Assembly (NCBI RefSeq): GCF_002196705.1
Contig: NZ_NADJ01000032.1
Coordinates: 62,001 to 126,000 of the forward strand
Direction of reading: 5' to 3'
Origin: Desulfosporosinus sp. FKB
GTDB taxonomy: Bacteria > Bacillota > Desulfitobacteriia > Desulfitobacteriales > Desulfitobacteriaceae
DNA: 64,000 bases
The notes under the pieces are model-generated. The model was not told the DNA's origin. It saw only the letters and a program-made list of their open reading frames with translations, and did no database searches. The stretch's first letter is position 1. The number at the start of each line of letters is the position of its first letter. The position numbers and the translations under genes were made by a program. This document shows, piece after piece, positions 27,922 to 59,474 of this stretch.

Positions 27922-28112
27922 TTGGAGGTGTGGTAGAGGCGCGAATGACATAAGTACTATGGAAAAGGTTGCGGCAACTGATGAGACCATAGAAAAGGGG
28001 ATTTCGCCGAAGCGCAAAAAGCAGCGTGATTTTTGTTGCTGGTTCTACAGTCAACAACTGTGGGACTGTCATATGATAGTTTTATGAAGACTATCGTATG
28101 GAGAACTACTCC
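27922..28112 (+). ncRNA. Lysine riboswitch (L-box) upstream of lysA
   Basis: Conserved L-box blocks appear in order: GTAGAGGCGCGAA near 27933, AAGTA, GGAAAAGG, GGGATTTCGCCGAAGCGC around 28000-28016, TGCTGGTTCT and GGGACTGTCA near 28064, followed by the P5-like stem catatgatagt/actatcgtatg. P1 can close as ggtag/ctact. Exact ends are approximate. It precedes diaminopimelate decarboxylase, the last step of lysine synthesis. Confidence 0.9.
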
Positions 28113-28149
28113 CAACAGGAGAAGAGGGTCAATGTTAACGTGCAGTTGT

Positions 28150-47260: not shown

Positions 47261-48169
47261 GTGAAACGGTTAAAAATGTCTATTATTGCCTTAATCTTCG
47301 GGATTGTTGGAATAGTTTTCGTTGGCTATTCAGGACTGTCTACTCCCAAAGACGCTCAAGCAGCCTGTGGGGCATCAACGTCTTCCTGTAAAACGTGTCA
47401 CGAGGTTCAAGGAGCCGATCCTGTTTCCAAAAAGGGAGATTGGCATACACAGCACTCCTTTGGAGATTTCTGTCAGGCTTGTCACTTGGGTGTGGCAACG
47501 GAAACTGATAAGACAAAAGCTCATGCGGGGATCATTGCTAAACCTCTAGCTCAGCCGGATCAAACTTGTGTCTCGTGTCATCCAACGGATACTGCGGCAC
47601 GAGTTGCCAAATACGGAGGATCAGCAACAACGTCCAATGCTTCAGGAAATAACTCAAAAGGAAGCTCCTCTGCTGCAGGGACAGCTCCTTCCGCAGAGAC
47701 GGGATCAGTCGCTCCTTCGCCGGCAGCAACTCAAGTTCCGCCGAGTTCTAACCCGAACTTTGATGTTCTTGACTTTAGTAATAATGGCAAACTATCCTGG
47801 CTTACTTGGTCTATCATCGCTGCCGATATTCTGATTCTTTTAGTTTTGGCGATTTTGCTTTGGAAATGGAAAAAAGGTCTCTGGCCATGGGCTTACCTTA
47901 AAGGAAGGCAGAGAAATGTTCCCTTTAATACCCTGCCGTCGGAAGTTCAAGACGTATTTAGGCAATTGCTTGCCGGGGATATGGAGACAGTTTTGCTGCT
48001 GAAAACCATTTTAGAACGTCCCAATGGGCGGCAAACCTTGCTATTCTTATCTCAAGTGCCAGAGAATATCCTGACTCAGCTGCAAAGGATGGATGAAAAA
48101 GATCTGAAACAATTGATTTCCTTAATCGAGGCTGAGAAAGAGAAGGATAGGGGAAAGGGGGAAGTATAG
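47261..48169 (+). CDS. Membrane-anchored triheme cytochrome c with cytoplasmic domain
   Basis: The protein has 302 residues. An N-terminal signal anchor (about 5-27) precedes three CxxCH haem sites (CKTCH from Cys43, CQACH, CVSCH) in the first 110 residues. A Ser/Ala/Pro-rich linker leads to a second membrane segment (about 178-200), and a helical cytoplasmic domain of about 100 residues follows. The extracytoplasmic haem part could exchange electrons with the molybdoenzyme of this operon. The cytoplasmic part has no recognised family. First gene of the operon; the GTG start follows ggtgaggag, and the next gene starts directly after the stop. Confidence 0.85.
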   Translation: MKRLKMSIIALIFGIVGIVFVGYSGLSTPKDAQAACGASTSSCKTCHEVQGADPVSKKGDWHTQHSFGDFCQACHLGVATETDKTKAHAGIIAKPLAQPDQTCVSCHPTDTAARVAKYGGSATTSNASGNNSKGSSSAAGTAPSAETGSVAPSPAATQVPPSSNPNFDVLDFSNNGKLSWLTWSIIAADILILLVLAILLWKWKKGLWPWAYLKGRQRNVPFNTLPSEVQDVFRQLLAGDMETVLLLKTILERPNGRQTLLFLSQVPENILTQLQRMDEKDLKQLISLIEAEKEKDRGKGEV

Positions 48170-48700
48170 ATGTCTTTTACTGAAAAAATGAAAGAAAAAA
48201 CATGGTCTCCATGGGCCGCGGGCTTTCTTTTGGGAGTAACTGCCATAGCCTCCTATGTTCTGGTTGACAAGACGATCGGTTCTTCCGGAGGCCTCGAAAG
48301 CATCGACAGTATGCTTTTAAAGACGTTTCATTCTAACTTAGCAAACTCGATGTATTTTAAATTTCAGATGCCTCCCGTACTAAGTTTTCAAATTATCCTG
48401 TTTATTGGCATGCTACTTGGCGCTCTTGTCTCAAGTTTATGGTCTCATGATTTTAAAGTACGCATGATGCCTGATCAGTTGTGGACCCAAAATTACGGGC
48501 CCAGCAAGTTGAAACGGTGGGCATTAATTTTTATCGGCGGTATGATTATTGAATATGCTGCCGGGATTGCCGGCGGATGTACGAGCGGTTTGGCCATATC
48601 AGGGACAATGCAGCTTTCACCGGCAGGCTTATTATTTATAGTTGGCTTGTTCGTGTCTGGGATTATCACAACCAAACTTTTGTATGGGAGGGATTATTAA
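48170..48700 (+). CDS. YeeE/YedE sulfur-transport family protein, first half protein
   Basis: The 176-residue membrane protein has about four hydrophobic segments. The family Cys motif is present as AGIAGGCTSGLAISG, with a basic FKVR/KLKRW loop before it. YeeE/YedE proteins move thiosulfate or other reduced sulfur (selenium has been proposed for some). The usual functional unit is either one fused protein or two half proteins, as here. It directly abuts the cytochrome gene. Confidence 0.88.
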   Translation: MSFTEKMKEKTWSPWAAGFLLGVTAIASYVLVDKTIGSSGGLESIDSMLLKTFHSNLANSMYFKFQMPPVLSFQIILFIGMLLGALVSSLWSHDFKVRMMPDQLWTQNYGPSKLKRWALIFIGGMIIEYAAGIAGGCTSGLAISGTMQLSPAGLLFIVGLFVSGIITTKLLYGRDY

Positions 48701-48701
48701 C

Positions 48702-49280
48702 ATGACCACTTATGTTATCCCTTTAATTATTGGTTTTTTCTTCGCCTTTGCGCTGCAAAAAGCCGGCTTAGGTCATTATCATCGGATTGTCAACCAATTT
48801 CGTTTTAAGGATAACACCATCATGAAATTTATGATGACAGGGATTTCAGTGGGGCTTGTTGGTCTTTATGCTTTGAAGGATCTGGGCTTTATTCAACTGG
48901 ATCAAATGTCCTCGACATATATCGTCGGCAATCTCCTGGGCGGACTTCTCTTTGGAGTTGGTATGGCATTAGCCGGGACATGACCAGGTACTTTGATCAC
49001 AGGTTGTGGTCAGGGAAATATGGACTATTTGATTCCTGGAGTTTTAGGTTTTCTTGCCGGCGGCGTTCTCTTTGGGGCTACCTACCAGTCAATCTTCTTA
49101 AAAATATCCACTATTGGCGTTTATGGGCAGCAATCCCTTGAGGAACTGCTCCATGTAAACCATTGGCTGTTTATCTCTCTCTTTGTTTTCTGTACTCTCG
49201 TGTTCTATGTGGGTTCGAAAATTGCCGAGAAAGCAAAAGATGTCTCCGAAAAAAAGGCCAAAGATCTGAGGATGAACTAA
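48702..49280 (+). CDS. YeeE/YedE sulfur-transport protein, second half, with in-frame TGA read as selenocysteine
   Basis: The open frame from ATG 48702 (after gggaggg) is interrupted only by TGA at 48981-48983, codon 94, and continues to 49280 in the same frame (192 residues). The context GMALAGT-TGA-PGTLITG aligns with the family motif GMALSG-x-CPG, so the TGA replaces the conserved Cys. A hairpin of up to 11 bp with a GGU loop begins 7-10 nt after the TGA (48991-49015). Both protein halves are membrane segments with normal family sequence. A nonsense mutation or sequencing error is the alternative. Confidence 0.8.
48981..49015 (+). promoter_or_regulatory. TGA codon with bacterial SECIS-like hairpin
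   Basis: tgatcaca (48994-49001) pairs with tgtggtca (49005-49012), one G-U pair, extended by ctt/ggg; loop ggt. The loop starts 18 nt after the TGA, the same distance as I recall for the GGUC loop of E. coli fdhF. SelB recognises such GGU loops. Confidence 0.72.
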
Positions 49281-49313: not shown

Positions 49314-51530
49314 ATGGCCAAAATTTTCACATGGAACCAGTTGTTCAGCCGACGGCAGTTTATTAAAGGTGCAGCAGGCACCGTGTTGGGTGCCTCTGCC
49401 GGTCTGGGACTGTTAGCACCGGGTAAAACCTTTGCAGGGTCTTCTTCTTCAATACCGGCAGATTCTGCGGAGAGTAGAGGAATTAAGAAGGTAACTACCA
49501 TCTGCGAGCAGTGTGTCTGGCGCTGCGGCGTAATTGCCCGGGTTGAAAACGGTGTTGTAAAAAAATTGGAGGGAAATCCCGATCATCCCAATAATGTGGG
49601 AAAGCTTTGTCCGCGGGGAAATGCAGGGATCGAAACATTATACAGCCCCGACCGTATAAAATTTCCTCTTATCCGGGCGGGGGCGAGGGGAAGCGGATTG
49701 TGGCGCAGAGCTTCCTGGGATGAAGCTTTGACATATACGGCGGGTCAAATGAAAAAGATTAAGGATAAGTATGGGGCCAAAGCCATGATGTTCAACTCCA
49801 CTGACAACCTGTCCCAGCCTTTGTTTGAGATCTTGCTCAAAGCTTACGGTACCCCAAACTATGGCACCCAGAGGAGTCTATGCTTCAATGCTATGACCAC
49901 CGGTTTTTATTATACCTACGGTGTTCCTCAACCAGGAACGGATTATAAAAATTGCAAGTATATGATCTTTGCGGGCAGAAATCTGGCCGAAGGAATTTCC
50001 AACAATGAAACCCAGGAAATGATTGAGATGATTGCCAGGGGAACTAAGGTTGTGGTTCTTGATCCGCGTTTCAGCAAAACAGCGTCGAAAGCCACAGAGT
50101 GGCTGCCGGTGCGCCCGGGAACAGATTCCGCTTTCTTTTTAGCTATCCTGAATGTCATTATTCAAGAAAAATTGTACAATCAGGATTTTATCACTACCTA
50201 TACTCAAGGTTTTGACGATTTAGTCCAGGAAGTCAAGGAATATACGCCGGAATGGGCGGAGAAAAAGTGCGAGATTCCTGGAGCGACAATAGAGAGGATT
50301 GCCCGGGAGTTTGCAGCAGCTGCTCCTGCCGCTATTGCCCATCCGAACTGGCGCACCTCAAATTTTAAAAATTCTTTCCAGACTGAGCGGGCAATTGCGG
50401 TCCTTAATGCCTTAATCGGCAATTGGGCTAAGCCGGGGGGACTTATTCCAGATCAGGAAATCAATACTGCCAAGCTTGGCGTTTTATCTCATCCACCCTT
50501 TCCTCCGGCTCAGGGAATGCGGCTTGACGGTGTACCCTGGCAGTATCCTCTGGTACCTCTATCCTATGGTGTAATTCAAACTATGCGGGATAATATCTTG
50601 ACCGGCAAACCTTATGAGGCCAAAGGATGGCTGATTTCCCGCCAGAATCCAATTCTCTCCATTCCGGAACGGCAGAAAACCATCAATGCTTTTATGAAGT
50701 TGGATTTTGTTGCGGTTATTGATATCCAAGCCAGTGATACGGCCTATTATGCCGATGTGATTTTGCCCGAATCCAGTTATCTGGAACGTTATGACGGCTT
50801 AGTCCCTATCGGCGACAAAATCTTTATCAGGCAGCCAGTGATTGAGCCCTTATATGACACGAAAAGCAGCTTAATGATTTATAAGGAACTGGCCGACAAA
50901 TTAGGCCTCGGTGATTTTCTTCCCTACAAGGATGAGCGAGATCTTTTGGCCAAACAACTTAAACCCTACCCGATCAGCTTAGATGAGTTAGAGAAGGCAG
51001 GCCATTATGTGGTACCGAATTTCCAAAAGGATTATTCCAAAGACTTTGAATTCCAAACCAGCAGCGGGAAAATCGAATTATCGTCGAGTATCATGGCGCA
51101 AATGGGCAAAAAAGCGGTGCCTACCTGGGATGAGCCGCCCCGCCCTTCGCAAGGTCACTATTATCTGTTGACGGGAAAAACTGCGCAGCATTCCCAGATG
51201 TTTACGCAGAACAATCGTTGGTTATTGGAAGTCTTTTCGGAAAACCGAGCCTGGCTGCATACTTCAGTGGCTGCTAAGCTTGGAGTTAAGACAGATGACA
51301 AGGTTATTCTGGAAAGCGACGTTGGCAAAGTGACGATTAAAGCCCAGGTTACCGAAGGAATCCGGCCGGACTGCATTTTCATGGTCGGAGGATTCGGTCA
51401 TGTCAGCAAAGGGCTTAGATCAGCTTATAAACTTGGAGCAAGCGATTCAGCACTCCACAAGACCGTTACAGATCCACTCTCTGGAGGTTCGGCTTTGAGT
51501 GAGACGTTTGTAACTGTAAGTAAGGCGTAG
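49314..51530 (+). CDS. Molybdopterin oxidoreductase, PsrA/PhsA-like catalytic subunit
   Basis: The protein has 738 residues. A twin-arginine signal (SRRQFIKG) marks export. The N-terminal [4Fe-4S] motif is CEQCVWRCG ... CPRG (about 62-100). The probable Mo ligand is Cys in TQRSLCFNAM, as in polysulfide/thiosulfate reductases, and the C-terminal molybdopterin-binding domain follows (YYLLTGKTAQHSQMFTQNN). The partners PsrB and NrfD are encoded next. The reaction is probably reduction (or oxidation) of polysulfide, thiosulfate or tetrathionate; the exact substrate cannot be read from sequence. Confidence 0.9.
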   Translation: MAKIFTWNQLFSRRQFIKGAAGTVLGASAGLGLLAPGKTFAGSSSSIPADSAESRGIKKVTTICEQCVWRCGVIARVENGVVKKLEGNPDHPNNVGKLCPRGNAGIETLYSPDRIKFPLIRAGARGSGLWRRASWDEALTYTAGQMKKIKDKYGAKAMMFNSTDNLSQPLFEILLKAYGTPNYGTQRSLCFNAMTTGFYYTYGVPQPGTDYKNCKYMIFAGRNLAEGISNNETQEMIEMIARGTKVVVLDPRFSKTASKATEWLPVRPGTDSAFFLAILNVIIQEKLYNQDFITTYTQGFDDLVQEVKEYTPEWAEKKCEIPGATIERIAREFAAAAPAAIAHPNWRTSNFKNSFQTERAIAVLNALIGNWAKPGGLIPDQEINTAKLGVLSHPPFPPAQGMRLDGVPWQYPLVPLSYGVIQTMRDNILTGKPYEAKGWLISRQNPILSIPERQKTINAFMKLDFVAVIDIQASDTAYYADVILPESSYLERYDGLVPIGDKIFIRQPVIEPLYDTKSSLMIYKELADKLGLGDFLPYKDERDLLAKQLKPYPISLDELEKAGHYVVPNFQKDYSKDFEFQTSSGKIELSSSIMAQMGKKAVPTWDEPPRPSQGHYYLLTGKTAQHSQMFTQNNRWLLEVFSENRAWLHTSVAAKLGVKTDDKVILESDVGKVTIKAQVTEGIRPDCIFMVGGFGHVSKGLRSAYKLGASDSALHKTVTDPLSGGSALSETFVTVSKA

Positions 51531-51541
51531 GAGGGAAAACT

Positions 51542-52117
51542 ATGACAGTTCGTATGGGATTTGTCATTATCACTTCGCGCTGTATCGACTGTGATGCCTG
51601 TATGGTCGCGTGCCGCGCAGAAAATGACGTACCCATTGGAAAAACACGCAATTGGGTCAAAAGCAGCGGTGTTCAAGGTGAATTTCCCAAGGTTAAAGAA
51701 GTTTTTCAACCCGGAAATTGCATGCATTGTGAGCACCCTCCCTGCGTTTCGGTATGTCCCACAGGAGCGTCCCAAAAACGCGCCGATGGTATTGTCATTG
51801 TTGAAAACAGTAAATGTATCGGGTGCAAATATTGTATTACTGCTTGTCCTTATGATGCTCGTTTTGCCAATCCGGAGACAGGCAAAGCAGATAAATGTAC
51901 GTTTTGTTTGCAGCGCTTGGAGCAAGGCTTAAAACCGGCCTGCGTCCAAACTTGTTTGGGAAAATCACGGCACGCGGGTGATCTCAATGACCCGGAGAGT
52001 GTTGTAGCCAAATTAATTGCCAAATACCCAAGTCGTCAGTTGCTGACGTATGTGGGAACCGGCCCCAATATTTATTATATTGATGAGGTCGTTCCGGAAA
52101 TACCTGAGGGCAAATAA
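51542..52117 (+). CDS. Four-cluster ferredoxin subunit (PsrB/PhsB type)
   Basis: The 191-residue protein has 16 Cys in four cluster motifs: CIDCDACMVACRAE, CMHCEHPPCVSVCPTG, CIGCKYCITACPYD and CTFCLQR...CVQTC. It passes electrons between the molybdoenzyme and the NrfD-type membrane subunit. It has no signal of its own, so it is probably exported with the Tat substrate. The ATG is preceded by taggaggg. Confidence 0.93.
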   Translation: MTVRMGFVIITSRCIDCDACMVACRAENDVPIGKTRNWVKSSGVQGEFPKVKEVFQPGNCMHCEHPPCVSVCPTGASQKRADGIVIVENSKCIGCKYCITACPYDARFANPETGKADKCTFCLQRLEQGLKPACVQTCLGKSRHAGDLNDPESVVAKLIAKYPSRQLLTYVGTGPNIYYIDEVVPEIPEGK

Positions 52118-52137
52118 GGGCGAAGGAGGGATTGCAT

Positions 52138-53034
52138 GTGGAAATAACCTGGGGCTTATTAATTGTTATTTACCTCTTTACTGCAGGGGTGAGTGCAGGA
52201 GCTATGATTACCTCGAACCTGACCTTGCTTTTGGGCGGTAAAGATTTTGAAAGGGTTGGCCGTTGGGGGGCATTAATTTCACCCTTTCCAATTTCCTTTG
52301 GGCTGGGTGTCTTGCTACTCGATTTAGGGAGCCCTTTTAACTTCTATCGTTTATTTATGACGTTGCAGGTTCGCTCTCCCATGTCTTATGGTAGTTGGGC
52401 GATTCTTTTCTTCACCTTGCTGAGTGTTGTCTATCTATACCTTTGGCTGCCTCAGAAGTTGCAAATTGTCGGGGAAGCTAAAGCTTTGGAACAATGGAAA
52501 AGAAGATTGGCTAAAATAATTCCTTTCTTGTCGGTAGGTGTGGCCTCCTATACAGGCCTTCTTCTCAATGCTGCCGCACGTCCCTTGTGGGCAGCTCCCC
52601 TGCTGCCGGTGCTTTTTTTGGTATCTGCTTTGTCTACCGGGGTGGCTGCTGTAATTTTCGTCTCAGCAATTACTCCCTGGCAGAGGGCCAGACAGGGGGA
52701 ACTGCACCTATTGACTAAAGTGGATGCTTTGCTCATCGCTTTAGAATGTTTTATACTATTAGCAATGATAGTGATGGGCAGGTTAAGTTCTCTCAGTGTT
52801 GCAGCGGCTTTCGGGAGTATGATCTACGGACAGTTTGCCTTTATTTTTTGGATTTTGATCGTAGGCTTGGGGCTGTTAGTTCCTTTTTCCCTGGAGTACA
52901 TGGAATTGAAAGAGAAATTTTCAGTTCGCTGGACTCTGCCAGTTACTATCGGCAGCAGTTTCCTCGTTCTTTTTGGCGGTTTTTTTGTCCGCTATATCAT
53001 AACTTATGCCGGGCAATTGACCCGTTGGTTTTAG
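52138..53034 (+). CDS. NrfD/PsrC family membrane quinone subunit
   Basis: The 298-residue protein has about eight membrane segments. The N-terminal EITWGLLIVIYLFTAGVSAGA and GSPFNFYRLF are typical of NrfD/PsrC, which reacts with menaquinone. The GTG at 52138 is used because aaggaggg ends 7 bp upstream; a TTG at 52132 is too close to it. It completes a PsrABC-like module. Confidence 0.9.
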   Translation: MEITWGLLIVIYLFTAGVSAGAMITSNLTLLLGGKDFERVGRWGALISPFPISFGLGVLLLDLGSPFNFYRLFMTLQVRSPMSYGSWAILFFTLLSVVYLYLWLPQKLQIVGEAKALEQWKRRLAKIIPFLSVGVASYTGLLLNAAARPLWAAPLLPVLFLVSALSTGVAAVIFVSAITPWQRARQGELHLLTKVDALLIALECFILLAMIVMGRLSSLSVAAAFGSMIYGQFAFIFWILIVGLGLLVPFSLEYMELKEKFSVRWTLPVTIGSSFLVLFGGFFVRYIITYAGQLTRWF

Positions 53035-53082: not shown

Positions 53083-53535
53083 ATGGCAGGGCAAATAGAG
53101 TGCTCGCGACGGACAGTATTGCGCTTTGCTTGGTCCGGAATGGTTGCGGTGGGCGCCTTAAGTGTCAAACCTCTTGTTGACTATCTGACAAGTAAAGAAG
53201 ATCAGCCGCGCACGTCCTTGGTAGCCTATGAAAAGAGCCTTGTGGAAAAAACGGATTGGCAGCATGTGCCCAATTCACGTGTTTGGGTTATGCGGGATGA
53301 TCAAGGCATTGCTGCTTTAGTTGCGACCTGTACTCACCTGGGCTGCGAAGTAACGTATCATCCGGAAAGAAAACAATGGTTATGCCCCTGCCATGGCAGT
53401 ATTTACGACACAGACGGCAGGCCTGTAGAAGGGCCTGCTCCTAAAGCCTTGCCAAGGGCGGCTGTGGAGCGAAAGGCGGATGGGTCCTTGATCATTAATA
53501 CGGAGAAGCAAGTTGGATTGGATGCCCGGCTATGA
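53083..53535 (+). CDS. Rieske iron-sulfur protein
   Basis: The protein has 150 residues. A twin-arginine-like N-terminus (SRRTVLRFAWSGM) is followed by a membrane segment, and the Rieske [2Fe-2S] ligands are CTHLGC and CPCHGS. It overlaps the cytochrome b gene by 4 bp. With the next three genes it forms a b6-Rieske quinol oxidase-type complex. Confidence 0.95.
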   Translation: MAGQIECSRRTVLRFAWSGMVAVGALSVKPLVDYLTSKEDQPRTSLVAYEKSLVEKTDWQHVPNSRVWVMRDDQGIAALVATCTHLGCEVTYHPERKQWLCPCHGSIYDTDGRPVEGPAPKALPRAAVERKADGSLIINTEKQVGLDARL

Positions 53536-54152
53536 AGGATAATTTTGTTAATCACCTGCGGCCGCGCTTTATCTCGGATCGGGCACTTTCGGTCTACTAC
53601 ACCTTTTGCCTCGGAGGGCTGTCATTTCTGGCATTTCTAATGCTTGGGATTACAGGGATTCTTTTAATGTTTCACTATCAGCCCGGTACAAGTTCAGGTT
53701 TCAGCAGTGTTCTAACGATTGGGTCGGTAATTCCCTACGGTTCCGTCATTAGAAACCTGCATTATTGGTCGGCACAACTTATGGTTGTGACCGTTAACCT
53801 GCACATGGTCAGAGTCGTCTGGACTCATTCCTACAAGCCTCCGAAGCAGCTTAATTGGCTCGTTGGTGTCGGACTGCTGGTGCTTGTTTTAGTTTTGGAT
53901 TTTACGGGTTACCTGCTGATTGGTTCTCAAGAAAGCGGTGCAGCGGCAACGGTTGCTGCAAATCTGCTAAAGCAAATTCCGGGATTAGGCACAGCCCTGG
54001 CGCAGATTGCCTTAGGCGAACCGACCGCTTTAAGTGGCAGCACTTTGATTGTCTATGTCTGGCATTGTGTGGCCTTGCCCTTGGCTGCGTTCTGGCTGCA
54101 GCTCTATCATTTTTGGCGGATCCGCCGTGACGGCGGAGTACGCCCTCTCTAG
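53532..54152 (+). CDS. Cytochrome b6-type subunit
   Basis: The protein has 206 residues and four membrane segments. Haem-b ligands are His pairs 14 apart (LHYWSAQLMVVTVNLH) and 15 apart (WHCVALPLAAFWLQLYH), the b6 spacing. Cys26 in YYTFCLGG sits where b6 proteins attach the extra haem c-i. The subunit IV part is encoded separately next. Confidence 0.92.
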   Translation: MKDNFVNHLRPRFISDRALSVYYTFCLGGLSFLAFLMLGITGILLMFHYQPGTSSGFSSVLTIGSVIPYGSVIRNLHYWSAQLMVVTVNLHMVRVVWTHSYKPPKQLNWLVGVGLLVLVLVLDFTGYLLIGSQESGAAATVAANLLKQIPGLGTALAQIALGEPTALSGSTLIVYVWHCVALPLAAFWLQLYHFWRIRRDGGVRPL

Positions 54153-54169: not shown

Positions 54170-54541
54170 ATGGCTCGTTCACCCATTAATCAGCTTAAGG
54201 ATAACGAGGGAATAGCCGCCCTTGTTTTTCTGATCCTTTGCACTCTTTTGGCTTTCAAAGTTTCGTCCAGCGTGGGAACGAGCAATTTGGCTCCGGCAGT
54301 TCCTCATGCGGCAGCCCCCTGGATTTTTGGGCCTTTTCAAATACTGCTTTTGTATCTTCCGCCTTGGCTGGGGGCTTTAATGATTCCGGCCTTAATCCTT
54401 GTTGGTCTGGCCGTTGTGCCCTGGATTGCTCACTATTGGGGGGATAAATGGGGGAGAGGGATTTTCAGCGCTCTTTTTAGCCTGGTCCTTGTCCTCCTCT
54501 TCTGGTTTATGGTGAAAGAATTGTGGTGGAGTCACCTATGA
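54170..54541 (+). CDS. Cytochrome b subunit IV-like protein lacking the PEWY motif
   Basis: The 123-residue protein has about three membrane segments. The usual Qo-site PEWY motif is not present; the matching place reads APWIFGPFQILL, so the catalytic Glu is missing. Its position between cytochrome b and cytochrome c genes and the WLGALMIPALILVGLAVVPWI segment identify it as subunit IV-like. It overlaps the next gene by 4 bp. Confidence 0.8.
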   Translation: MARSPINQLKDNEGIAALVFLILCTLLAFKVSSSVGTSNLAPAVPHAAAPWIFGPFQILLLYLPPWLGALMIPALILVGLAVVPWIAHYWGDKWGRGIFSALFSLVLVLLFWFMVKELWWSHL

Positions 54542-56037
54542 AGAAAGTTCTGATCTTAGTAAGTCTTTTTCTCGGTCTCATTGTTTTGATTCTTCTTATT
54601 CAGGGCAGCACTCCGGATTGGGCTCACTATCAACGGGAGTATTTTCAAGAACAGGCAGCAAACTTGCAAGCGCAATTAAGTTTAACGAAAGATAAGACGA
54701 AGAAAACTCAGCTGCAGCAAGAAATCAAAAGCTTTGAAAATCGTAAGCCTGAAATTATTGACTTGGTGCTTCCCAACGGGAACGTTGAGCGCTGCAAAAC
54801 CTGTCACATCGGCATAGAGGAAATTTCCAGCTCTCATCCCAGTAATACCTTTGGCTGTGTCGTTTGCCACGGGGGAAATGCTCTCTCTTTGGACAAAGCA
54901 ACGGCCCATGCTCAAATGTATGGAGGGGGGCACCCGGGTTCCCTGAACGCAGCTTCTTTAAGCTGCGGAGGAACGGCTGAGAATGGGATGGCTTGTCACT
55001 CCGGCAACCAGGAAGCGGCGAAAAATGAAGTCGATCTCGTGAAAACGTCGATTATGTCCACAAAGGCCGGCGAGCTCAGTGTTGTACGCCGGATGTTCGG
55101 TTTTGATAAAACGAATGAGGTACCGGGGCTTGCCAAGGGACAGACAGCAGCGCTTTATCCTAATCCCTTGCAGGGACAGCCCAATCAGAAAGCGTTTCAG
55201 CAGAACTGTTTGAGTCAATGTCATCAAAACGGAGGGGAGATCCCCGTTTTTCCAACTCCGAATAATACTTCTCCCCAGGGCAGCCAAACTGGGGTTAAAT
55301 CTCAAACAGAGAACAAGATTCCGGCGAACGGTTGCGAGGTATGTCATGTTCTAACAAACCCTATGCATACATATATCGGGACAGATACGACCATGAGATC
55401 CGCTAATTTTGGCTGGGGGATGACCCACAGCTTGACAACCCAAATTCCTTACTCCCAGTGTAATCAGTGCCATAATCAAGGAAATCATGACCCGATCAAA
55501 ATGAGTTTTGCGTTTCGTTCAGATATGACCAAAGTTATTAGTGACTGGAAATCCGGAGATGCCAATTATTTGGACCGGGTTAAAGATTACTATTTGCCCG
55601 GTGAAATCTTCGCTCAATGTGAAGTCAGTCTGGATTGCATTGACTGTCACACAAGGCAGGATGTCATGGGAGATAATTTACTCCACACCTCACAATATGA
55701 TGCTGTTCATCTTCAATGCCAAGACTGTCATGGCACAAAAGAAACCCTCCCCAAGACCAACAAGATTGTGAACCCTAAGGACTTAGCCTTTGAAGAACAA
55801 CTGACGAACCCTAAGTTTCCCGCTCTGAAACTTGGGGATGAGATTCTTATTACGGGAAAAGGTGAGGAGCTGCCCTTTATCCGCCATGAAGGAAATAGTT
55901 GGGTACAGACCAGCCGTGTGACAGGTAAAACCTTCAATATTCCTTTAGTTTATGGAAGCAAGTGTCAGCAATCGCTTCTGGAGCAGGGGGCAGACTCCTG
56001 TCACAAATGTCATGACCGGAGCGCAGCCCATCCCTAA
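54538..56037 (+). CDS. Multihaem cytochrome c (about 7-9 haems)
   Basis: The protein has 499 residues with an N-terminal membrane anchor (about 4-24) and a coiled-coil-like stretch. Seven canonical CxxCH sites are visible (CKTCH, CVVCH, CEVCH, CNQCH, CIDCH, CQDCH, CHKCH). CLSQCH (Cx3CH) and a Cx9CH site ending in GMACH are possible unusual sites. It is extracytoplasmic and likely takes electrons from the Rieske/b complex. ATG at 54538 follows ggtggag. Last gene of the operon; a strong terminator follows. Confidence 0.9.
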   Translation: MKKVLILVSLFLGLIVLILLIQGSTPDWAHYQREYFQEQAANLQAQLSLTKDKTKKTQLQQEIKSFENRKPEIIDLVLPNGNVERCKTCHIGIEEISSSHPSNTFGCVVCHGGNALSLDKATAHAQMYGGGHPGSLNAASLSCGGTAENGMACHSGNQEAAKNEVDLVKTSIMSTKAGELSVVRRMFGFDKTNEVPGLAKGQTAALYPNPLQGQPNQKAFQQNCLSQCHQNGGEIPVFPTPNNTSPQGSQTGVKSQTENKIPANGCEVCHVLTNPMHTYIGTDTTMRSANFGWGMTHSLTTQIPYSQCNQCHNQGNHDPIKMSFAFRSDMTKVISDWKSGDANYLDRVKDYYLPGEIFAQCEVSLDCIDCHTRQDVMGDNLLHTSQYDAVHLQCQDCHGTKETLPKTNKIVNPKDLAFEEQLTNPKFPALKLGDEILITGKGEELPFIRHEGNSWVQTSRVTGKTFNIPLVYGSKCQQSLLEQGADSCHKCHDRSAAHP

Positions 56038-58583: not shown

Positions 58584-59474
58584 GTGTCTGAGGATCTTAA
58601 TAATATCAAAGATCACTATGAACTTGCCATTATTGGATGCGGGCCGGCAGGGATGGCGGCAGCCCTTAATGCAAAAATCAGGAAACGAGATTTTATTTTG
58701 TTGGGCTCGGAATTCTGCAGTCCAAAGCTGTCTAAGGCACCTCAAATTGAAAATTGGCTCGGTTTTCCTGAAATAAGCGGTGAGGATTTAAGACAGCGGT
58801 TTCTAAATCATCTCAATGAAAAGGACATATCTATTATTCCTTTTAAAGTTACAAGTATATATCCGGGCCCTCCTTTCACTATCATTGGCAAGGAGAAATC
58901 CCTGGAAGCCGATGCTCTCATTCTGGCGACGGGAGTTTCGGCGAGCAAATTATTTCCCGGTGAAGCCGAATTGCTTGGTATGGGTGTCGGCTATTGTGCC
59001 ACCTGTGACGGTCCCTTGTATAAAGACAAGAAGGCAGCGATTATTTCTTATAGTCACGAAGGTGAGGATGAGGCCAATTTTATGGCCGACATCTGCTCCC
59101 AAGTCTATTATATTCCTTATTACAGTGACGTTCCCTCCCTTGATTCCCGGGTTGAAGTTAAGAAGAGCAAAGTTGCGAGGATTGTGGGGAAAGAAAGGGT
59201 AGAACAACTTGACCTTGGGGATGAACAATTAACCGTAGACGGAGTATTCATCATCAGAGAAAATCTTCCTGCCGAGCAGCTTATTTCAGGTCTGGAAATG
59301 GAAGACGGTGCGATTAAGGTAAATCACAAATTGGAAACTAGTTTTCCAGGGTTATTTGCAGCCGGCGATTGCACGGGACAACCCTATCAGTTAATTAAAG
59401 CTGCAGGAGAAGGCGGAACTGCAGCCCTTCAGGCGGTGAAATATCTGGATAGTCTTAAAGTTCCTAAACCCTAA
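58584..59474 (+). CDS. FAD-dependent thioredoxin-reductase-like oxidoreductase
   Basis: The protein has 296 residues. FAD-binding IIGCGPAGMAAAL lies at the N-terminus, the redox-active CATC pair in YCATCDGPLYKDKK, and the C-terminal GLFAAGDCTGQPYQ. The NAD(P)H-binding motif is degenerate (YSHEGEDEANFM, no GxGxxA), so an unusual donor such as ferredoxin is possible. The GTG start follows aaggaggt. It is close to the ferredoxin and sulfur genes. Confidence 0.85.
   Translation: MSEDLNNIKDHYELAIIGCGPAGMAAALNAKIRKRDFILLGSEFCSPKLSKAPQIENWLGFPEISGEDLRQRFLNHLNEKDISIIPFKVTSIYPGPPFTIIGKEKSLEADALILATGVSASKLFPGEAELLGMGVGYCATCDGPLYKDKKAAIISYSHEGEDEANFMADICSQVYYIPYYSDVPSLDSRVEVKKSKVARIVGKERVEQLDLGDEQLTVDGVFIIRENLPAEQLISGLEMEDGAIKVNHKLETSFPGLFAAGDCTGQPYQLIKAAGEGGTAALQAVKYLDSLKVPKP

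Follow-up and report, generated by a model that had tools for sequence, protein, structure and literature searches.

A predicted selenocysteine at a relay-cysteine position of a split YeeE/YedE transporter in Desulfosporosinus and its relatives

Among the closest described systems to the locus studied here is TsuA (YeeE) of Spirochaeta thermophila (solved structures 6leo, 6lep, 8j4c and 8k1r), a single-chain, cysteine-bearing transporter that works with TsuB; thiosulfate is proposed to be relayed past its three conserved cysteines via hydrogen bonds (PMC11073785, in excerpt). Split forms are also described: PmpA and PmpB are encoded by two short genes matching the C- and N-halves of such a protein, with one conserved Cys each, the PmpB residue corresponding to Cys91 and the PmpA residue to Cys293, both indispensable in TsuA. 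The same source leaves open, for TsuA and SoxT, whether the relay cysteines act chemically or by hydrogen bonding (PMC11582611, in excerpt). A predicted YeeE/YedE selenoprotein, WP_012471001.1, is tabulated in two reviews (PMC9312934 and PMC13188914, in excerpt); the second gives its motif as GUxSG and treats a differing selenocysteine (Sec) position or motif as defining a distinct subfamily. In the literature searched, this accession appears in those two sources only. No passage naming a YeeE/YedE selenoprotein was found in the main texts of GOS 2008 and Peng 2016, which leaves the two review tables as the basis of the prior claim. The main text of PMC12013277 mentions neither YeeE nor YedE, and among the papers listed in a search of openly available main texts, none names a Sec-containing YeeE in Desulfosporosinus.

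We analyzed a stretch of 64,000 nucleotides from Desulfosporosinus sp. FKB (contig NZ_NADJ01000032.1, positions 62,001 to 126,000; herein the window). Two adjacent short genes match the two halves of YeeE/YedE, as in PmpA/PmpB, and the PmpB-like half carries an in-frame TGA, proposed to encode Sec (U94), where PmpB carries Cys (Table 1). The locus differs from TsuA in having two chains, one with the proposed Sec, and in that no protein like TsuB/TusA, with which E. coli YeeE is partnered, turned up when the cluster proteins were scanned; it differs from PmpA/PmpB in that its genes lie inside a molybdoenzyme cluster. The original prediction knew of no described selenoprotein in this family and suggested that this one may be new. 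The excerpted reviews contradict the first statement, as a predicted member with another motif was already listed, and with it goes any novelty as a selenoprotein family. Novelty as a subfamily survives: WP_012471001.1 likewise belongs to PF04143, has Sec for Cys and is a prediction, but the motif in the window, GTUPGT in a short PmpB-like half, does not fit GUxSG, a difference that would define a new subfamily by the rule in the available part of the review. GCxSG is seen both in TsuA, at Cys91 (GGCASG), and in PmpA-like halves, at the site proposed to match Cys293 (GGCTSG), so the listed Sec position may or may not coincide with that in the window.

Many selenoproteins are redox enzymes. A Sec in the relay row of a transporter could be used to test cysteine chemistry against hydrogen bonding only, and natural Sec and Cys versions within one genus allow a direct comparison. 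In sulfate reducers, a gene seemingly broken in two may encode a single functional protein.

Table 1. Features of the split YeeE/YedE locus (window positions; bit scores with model cut-offs where relevant)
Feature	Position	Strand	Basis or remark
c-type cytochrome, three CxxCH (by eye), first gene of conserved cluster	47261-48169	+	Pfam cytochrome matches below cut-off
Partner YeeE/YedE C-half (PmpA-like), Cys137 kept in GGCTSG	48170-48700	+	PF04143, 71.6 bits
Predicted Sec-containing YeeE/YedE N-half (PmpB-like), 192 aa read through TGA	48702-49280	+	PF04143; aligned to TsuA residues 6-102
In-frame TGA, codon 94, proposed Sec at TsuA Cys91-equivalent position	48981-48983	+	Translation, homologues, TsuA alignment
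Proposed bacterial SECIS hairpin	48991-49015	+	Synonymous constraint, folding, alignment and pair counts; no covariation
Nearly invariant 8-bp hairpin core	48994-49012	+
GGU apical loop	49002-49004	+	GGC in L048 and L062; GGG in L063 (closing pair lost)
Cys102 codon TGT, 3' arm of hairpin	49005-49007	+	Homologue comparison
Molybdopterin oxidoreductase nearest to thiosulfate reductase PhsA; twin-arginine start (by eye)	49314-51530	+	Below PhsA cut-off
4Fe-4S electron-transfer subunit (TtrB/NrfC-like)	51542-52117	+	Below TtrB/NrfC cut-offs
NrfD-type membrane subunit	52132-53034	+
Rieske protein	53083-53535	+
Cytochrome b, ExtP-like	53532-54152	+	259.9 bits, cut-off 290
Small cluster-conserved protein	54170-54541	+	No family at E 0.01 (NCBIfam)
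Multihaem c-type cytochrome, weakly ExtM-like	54523-56037	+	130.1 bits, cut-off 800

The PmpB-like gene and codon 94

Read from its ATG with TGA as U, the N-half gene contains a single recoded codon, and GGGAGGG, Shine-Dalgarno-like by eye, lies just 5' of it. The PF04143 match runs across the TGA (residues 29 through 182; 85.4 bits, curated cut-off 27), beyond which the frame continues, open and homologous, for another 98 residues with coding-type diversity (0.54 at third and 0.09 at second codon positions). The TGA is thus the sole interruption of a YeeE/YedE half, as originally predicted, and it also stands where the family's conserved Cys before PG was expected: PG follows U94, and the non-TGA homologues examined have Cys here. 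Alignment to the solved structures places residue 94 on TsuA residue 91, occupied by Cys in 8k1r and by Ala in the chain of 6lep, and we take the Sec to be equivalent to this relay Cys. The half protein scores below the cut-offs of the TsuA thiosulfate transporter models, which are full length (NF052577, 52.7 versus 400 bits; NF041049, 42.3 versus 645 bits). AlphaFold prediction of the N-half alone from 15 alignment rows gave no usable model of the site (mean pLDDT 52.1, pTM 0.37).

Of 29 genomes of the genus Desulfosporosinus, 17 match: 16 carry TGA and one carries TGC (genome G018; loci L025/L061); the other 12, some of them incomplete, gave none. Across 73 genomes of the order, which include these 29, 23 match at E 1e-15 (19 TGA, 4 Cys), and three of the TGA genomes lie beyond Desulfosporosinus, so that the TGA form spans more than one genus. 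A contig scan of named relatives, overlapping in species with the order-wide set, yielded 22 loci (16 TGA, 6 Cys); the closest named match was D. acididurans, in a scan that may leave out records of the window's own genome. None of the three scans found a residue other than Sec or Cys at codon 94, and the genus and order homologue rows contain no further internal stops, in agreement with what the original prediction had asked of homologues. A plasmid search for relatives gave one weak match.

This distribution bears on whether the gene is simply damaged. A frame interrupted once could reflect a nonsense mutation, a sequencing error or a pseudogene. Sequencing error does not explain a TGA shared by 16 of the 17 matching genus genomes and three outside the genus, and a pseudogene is at odds with TGA at the same codon in 19 genomes of more than one genus, with the coding-type divergence that goes on after it and with the intact gene cluster. 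We regard damage of any of these kinds as practically out of the question.

In a tree of 28 rows (20 Sec, 8 Cys), two label changes suffice (two to three over bootstraps), and the TGC row sits within the Sec rows (fork supports 88/80, 80/69 and 95/77). The simplest reading is one putative gain of Sec and one reversion to Cys, which several weak forks and flagged long branches keep from being proof.

The downstream hairpin and the selenocysteine machinery

A hairpin with a G-containing apical loop follows the TGA directly. For the segment 48981-49024, folding predicts an 11-bp stem capped by a GGU loop at -14.9 kcal/mol (z -2.63), a stability matched by 2 of 200 dinucleotide shuffles. The full stem starts 7 nt, the nearly invariant 8-bp core 10 nt and the loop 18 nt after the TGA, so that folding returns the very dimensions given in the original prediction; this geometry would be like that of the fdhF SECIS, as that prediction proposed. 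The lower stem pairs are not all kept (pair 12-34 occurs in 3 of 14 distinct rows), and two other Sec hairpins are only moderately better than their shuffles (z -1.54 and -1.53). Compensatory changes were absent among 17 Sec sequences (14 distinct), in which 8 of the 11 pairs never vary, and Rfam returned nothing for 48950-49080, even at E 10.

Constraint on the hairpin is evident at synonymous sites. Across 23 sequences (21 distinct, 20 of those Sec), synonymous diversity averaged over columns with an invariant, degenerate amino acid is 0.108 in codons 99 through 104 versus 0.522 outside codons 95 through 104. No draw of random columns in 200,000 was as low (p 5e-6), for a stretch picked after viewing the sequences and with draws that ignore relatedness; the lowest two six-column stretches in the gene are 98 through 103 and 99 through 104. 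All 20 Sec sequences share the codons ATC, TGT and GGT, and also AAT at codon 106, which is not part of the hairpin. The stem is lost in the TGC homologue (z +1.05).

The complement of selA, selB, selC and selD expected for a selenoprotein, and called for as a check on the prediction, was found in the window genome (5.12 Mb): selA, selB and two selD exceed their cut-offs, and a tRNA-Sec is present. The tRNA-Sec has anticodon TCA (ARAGORN) and lies ∼1 kb from selB; one selD contains an in-frame TGA (UGCK) and the other does not (L071 and L072; G000 contigs C35 and C4). As searches for tRNA-Sec, selB and selD match weakly in all 14 control genomes, only matches over cut-off were counted, and for tRNA-Sec only 65-bit ones. 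On this basis, selA and selB are present in 19 of 19 TGA genomes. The four Cys-form genomes vary: G053 and G057 have both genes, which means that having the machinery is not enough to predict the Sec form; G066 (83% complete) has neither; and the TGC-bearing G018 (85% complete) has selA only, together with a 65-bit tRNA-Sec match. The missing selB of G018 may reflect genome incompleteness. We considered whether G018 had reverted to TGC through losing the Sec machinery and dropped the idea, because this 85% complete genome keeps selA and tRNA-Sec; lost Sec decoding does not explain the change. In another genome (G011), contig 1 carries two selB, two selA and two 65-bit tRNA-Sec, with one of each near 2.25 Mb.

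The ORF list splits the gene into frames 48642-48983 and 48993-49280, in keeping with a TGA that is a true stop followed by a second protein starting at TTG 48993; plain read-through as another residue would be a variant of this. Neither accounts for the Cys in relatives, for the frozen hairpin and its loss in the TGC form, or for selB and selA in all 19 TGA genomes, and we consider both very improbable. The exchange of TGA with Cys, the hairpin and the machinery instead make it very likely that TGA 48981 encodes Sec. The homologues and the machinery likewise support the predicted placement of Sec at a functional Cys of a YeeE/YedE transporter subunit.

Gene cluster and proposed role

Eighteen of the 22 named loci, among them the TGC form and two Cys-bearing Chloroflexota loci, keep the gene order cytochrome c-PmpA-PmpB-molybdoenzyme-FeS. 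In 12 of the 22, the available stretch carries on through NrfD, Rieske, cytochrome b, the small protein and the multihaem cytochrome, giving all ten genes. Four loci depart from this order: L053, which is truncated at the start; L066 and L067, short stretches from one Deferribacteraceae genome; and L068, without a cytochrome match. The molybdoenzyme reaches 607.2 bits against the PhsA model NF012032, whose cut-off is 694; it, the cytochrome b and the multihaem protein are like PhsA, ExtP and ExtM, respectively, and not members of these families. The partner C-half has no solved-structure match at E 0.001. Farther along the window, 58584-59474 encodes a thioredoxin-reductase-like flavoprotein, below the NCBIfam cut-offs shown, and a lysine riboswitch (107.1 bits) lies at 27926-28116.

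The mechanism that we favor, with some reserve, is as follows. TGA 48981 would be decoded as Sec by the host SelA, SelB, SelD and tRNA-Sec, guided by the downstream hairpin, and the Sec-containing N-half would join the Cys-containing C-half as a heterodimer, forming one split YeeE/YedE-type membrane transporter. Sec would replace the essential second relay cysteine (TsuA Cys91), with the partner giving the third (the Cys293 equivalent). As to substrate and direction, we infer that inorganic sulfur (thiosulfate or sulfane sulfur/polysulfide) probably crosses the cytoplasmic membrane for the co-encoded modules, the Phs/Psr-like molybdoenzyme and the Rieske/cytochrome b. Selenolates are ionized at lower pH and exchange faster than thiolates, so Sec could serve as a better-ionized, faster-exchanging relay group. 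Some carriers of the Sec form come from acidic sites, but others, D. lacus among them, are no evident match for an acid-only rule, and we do not press the idea of a pH advantage.

Thiosulfate or sulfane sulfur appears the favored substrate from the gene context, given a molybdoenzyme nearest to PhsA, and from two organisms. In Acididesulfobacillus acetoxydans, whose locus L060 has the Sec form, thiosulfate, sulfur and selenate but not polysulfide serve as acceptors, and thiosulfate and sulfur are also disproportionated (PMC8982180, in excerpt). In Thermotoga maritima, yeeE is up 42.6-fold on thiosulfate (PMC9431562, in excerpt).

The use of selenate by A. acetoxydans would also suit a transporter whose substrate is selenium, as selenide or selenite species, in place of sulfur, as would the co-occurrence of YedE relatives with selD (excerpts of PMC5322559) and the ExtP- and ExtM-like cluster genes, both below cut-off, whose namesakes are selenite/tellurite reduction operons. 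Scores against selenium YedE models are far below cut-off, however, for the N-half (TIGR04112, 24.8 versus 200 bits; NF033796, 27 versus 350 bits) and for its partner (38.1 versus 350 bits). In the available part of PMC11097638, yedE of M. maripaludis is not absolutely required for any selenium species tested, and its deletion causes only a mild selenocystine phenotype. Together with the PhsA-like molybdoenzyme and the 12 of 29 genus genomes, some incomplete, that have no match, these observations make selenium handling a rather improbable function.

Cys102 and a possible second Sec site in the family

All 20 distinct Sec forms carry Cys at residue 102; none of the nine Cys loci does, their residue being Ile, Val, Ala, Gly or Trp (two of these loci, L046 and L068, look alike, and L066 and L067 are from one genome). 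This pairing raises the question of whether Sec94 is mainly a redox switch or a selenenylsulfide partner of Cys102, gating the channel or sensing sulfur instead of relaying it; a family member, SoxT1B, serves signaling (PMC11582611, in excerpt). RNA pairing could by itself have kept the Cys102 codon, which doubles as the hairpin's 3' arm. In L063, where codon 100 has become ACC and the closing pair no longer forms, the Cys102 codon is still TGT, a hint from one lineage that the protein itself may also want Cys102 beside Sec. We judge a switch in place of a relay unlikely, and retain the relay as the preferred role of Sec94.

A PF04143 search of 398 genomes of the phylum revealed a further candidate site. 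Among the matches listed, many of which contain stops, 18 stretches were examined, and 10 (L108-L112, L114, L115 and L117-L119) have a TGA inside the protein at the motif YGUNIGALFSG of split YeeE C-halves, giving at least 10 genomes with this form; the motif reads Cys in L105 and L106. The site is proposed to be equivalent to Cys293 through the like TsuA motif GGCNIGHFLTG. As in the window, TGA replaces a proposed relay Cys of the same family; the loci differ in the site, in their neighbors and in an N-half that keeps Cys (GGCASG in six of six scanned of the 10). Their occurrence is in favor, though short of proof, of Sec having entered YeeE/YedE more than once. That Sec was taken up independently at Cys91 here and at Cys293 elsewhere for a substrate-relay role, here perhaps with Cys102, the two coming and going together, is a possibility that we offer tentatively. 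By eye, the neighbors of the C-half loci include TusA-like and thioredoxin-reductase-like genes.
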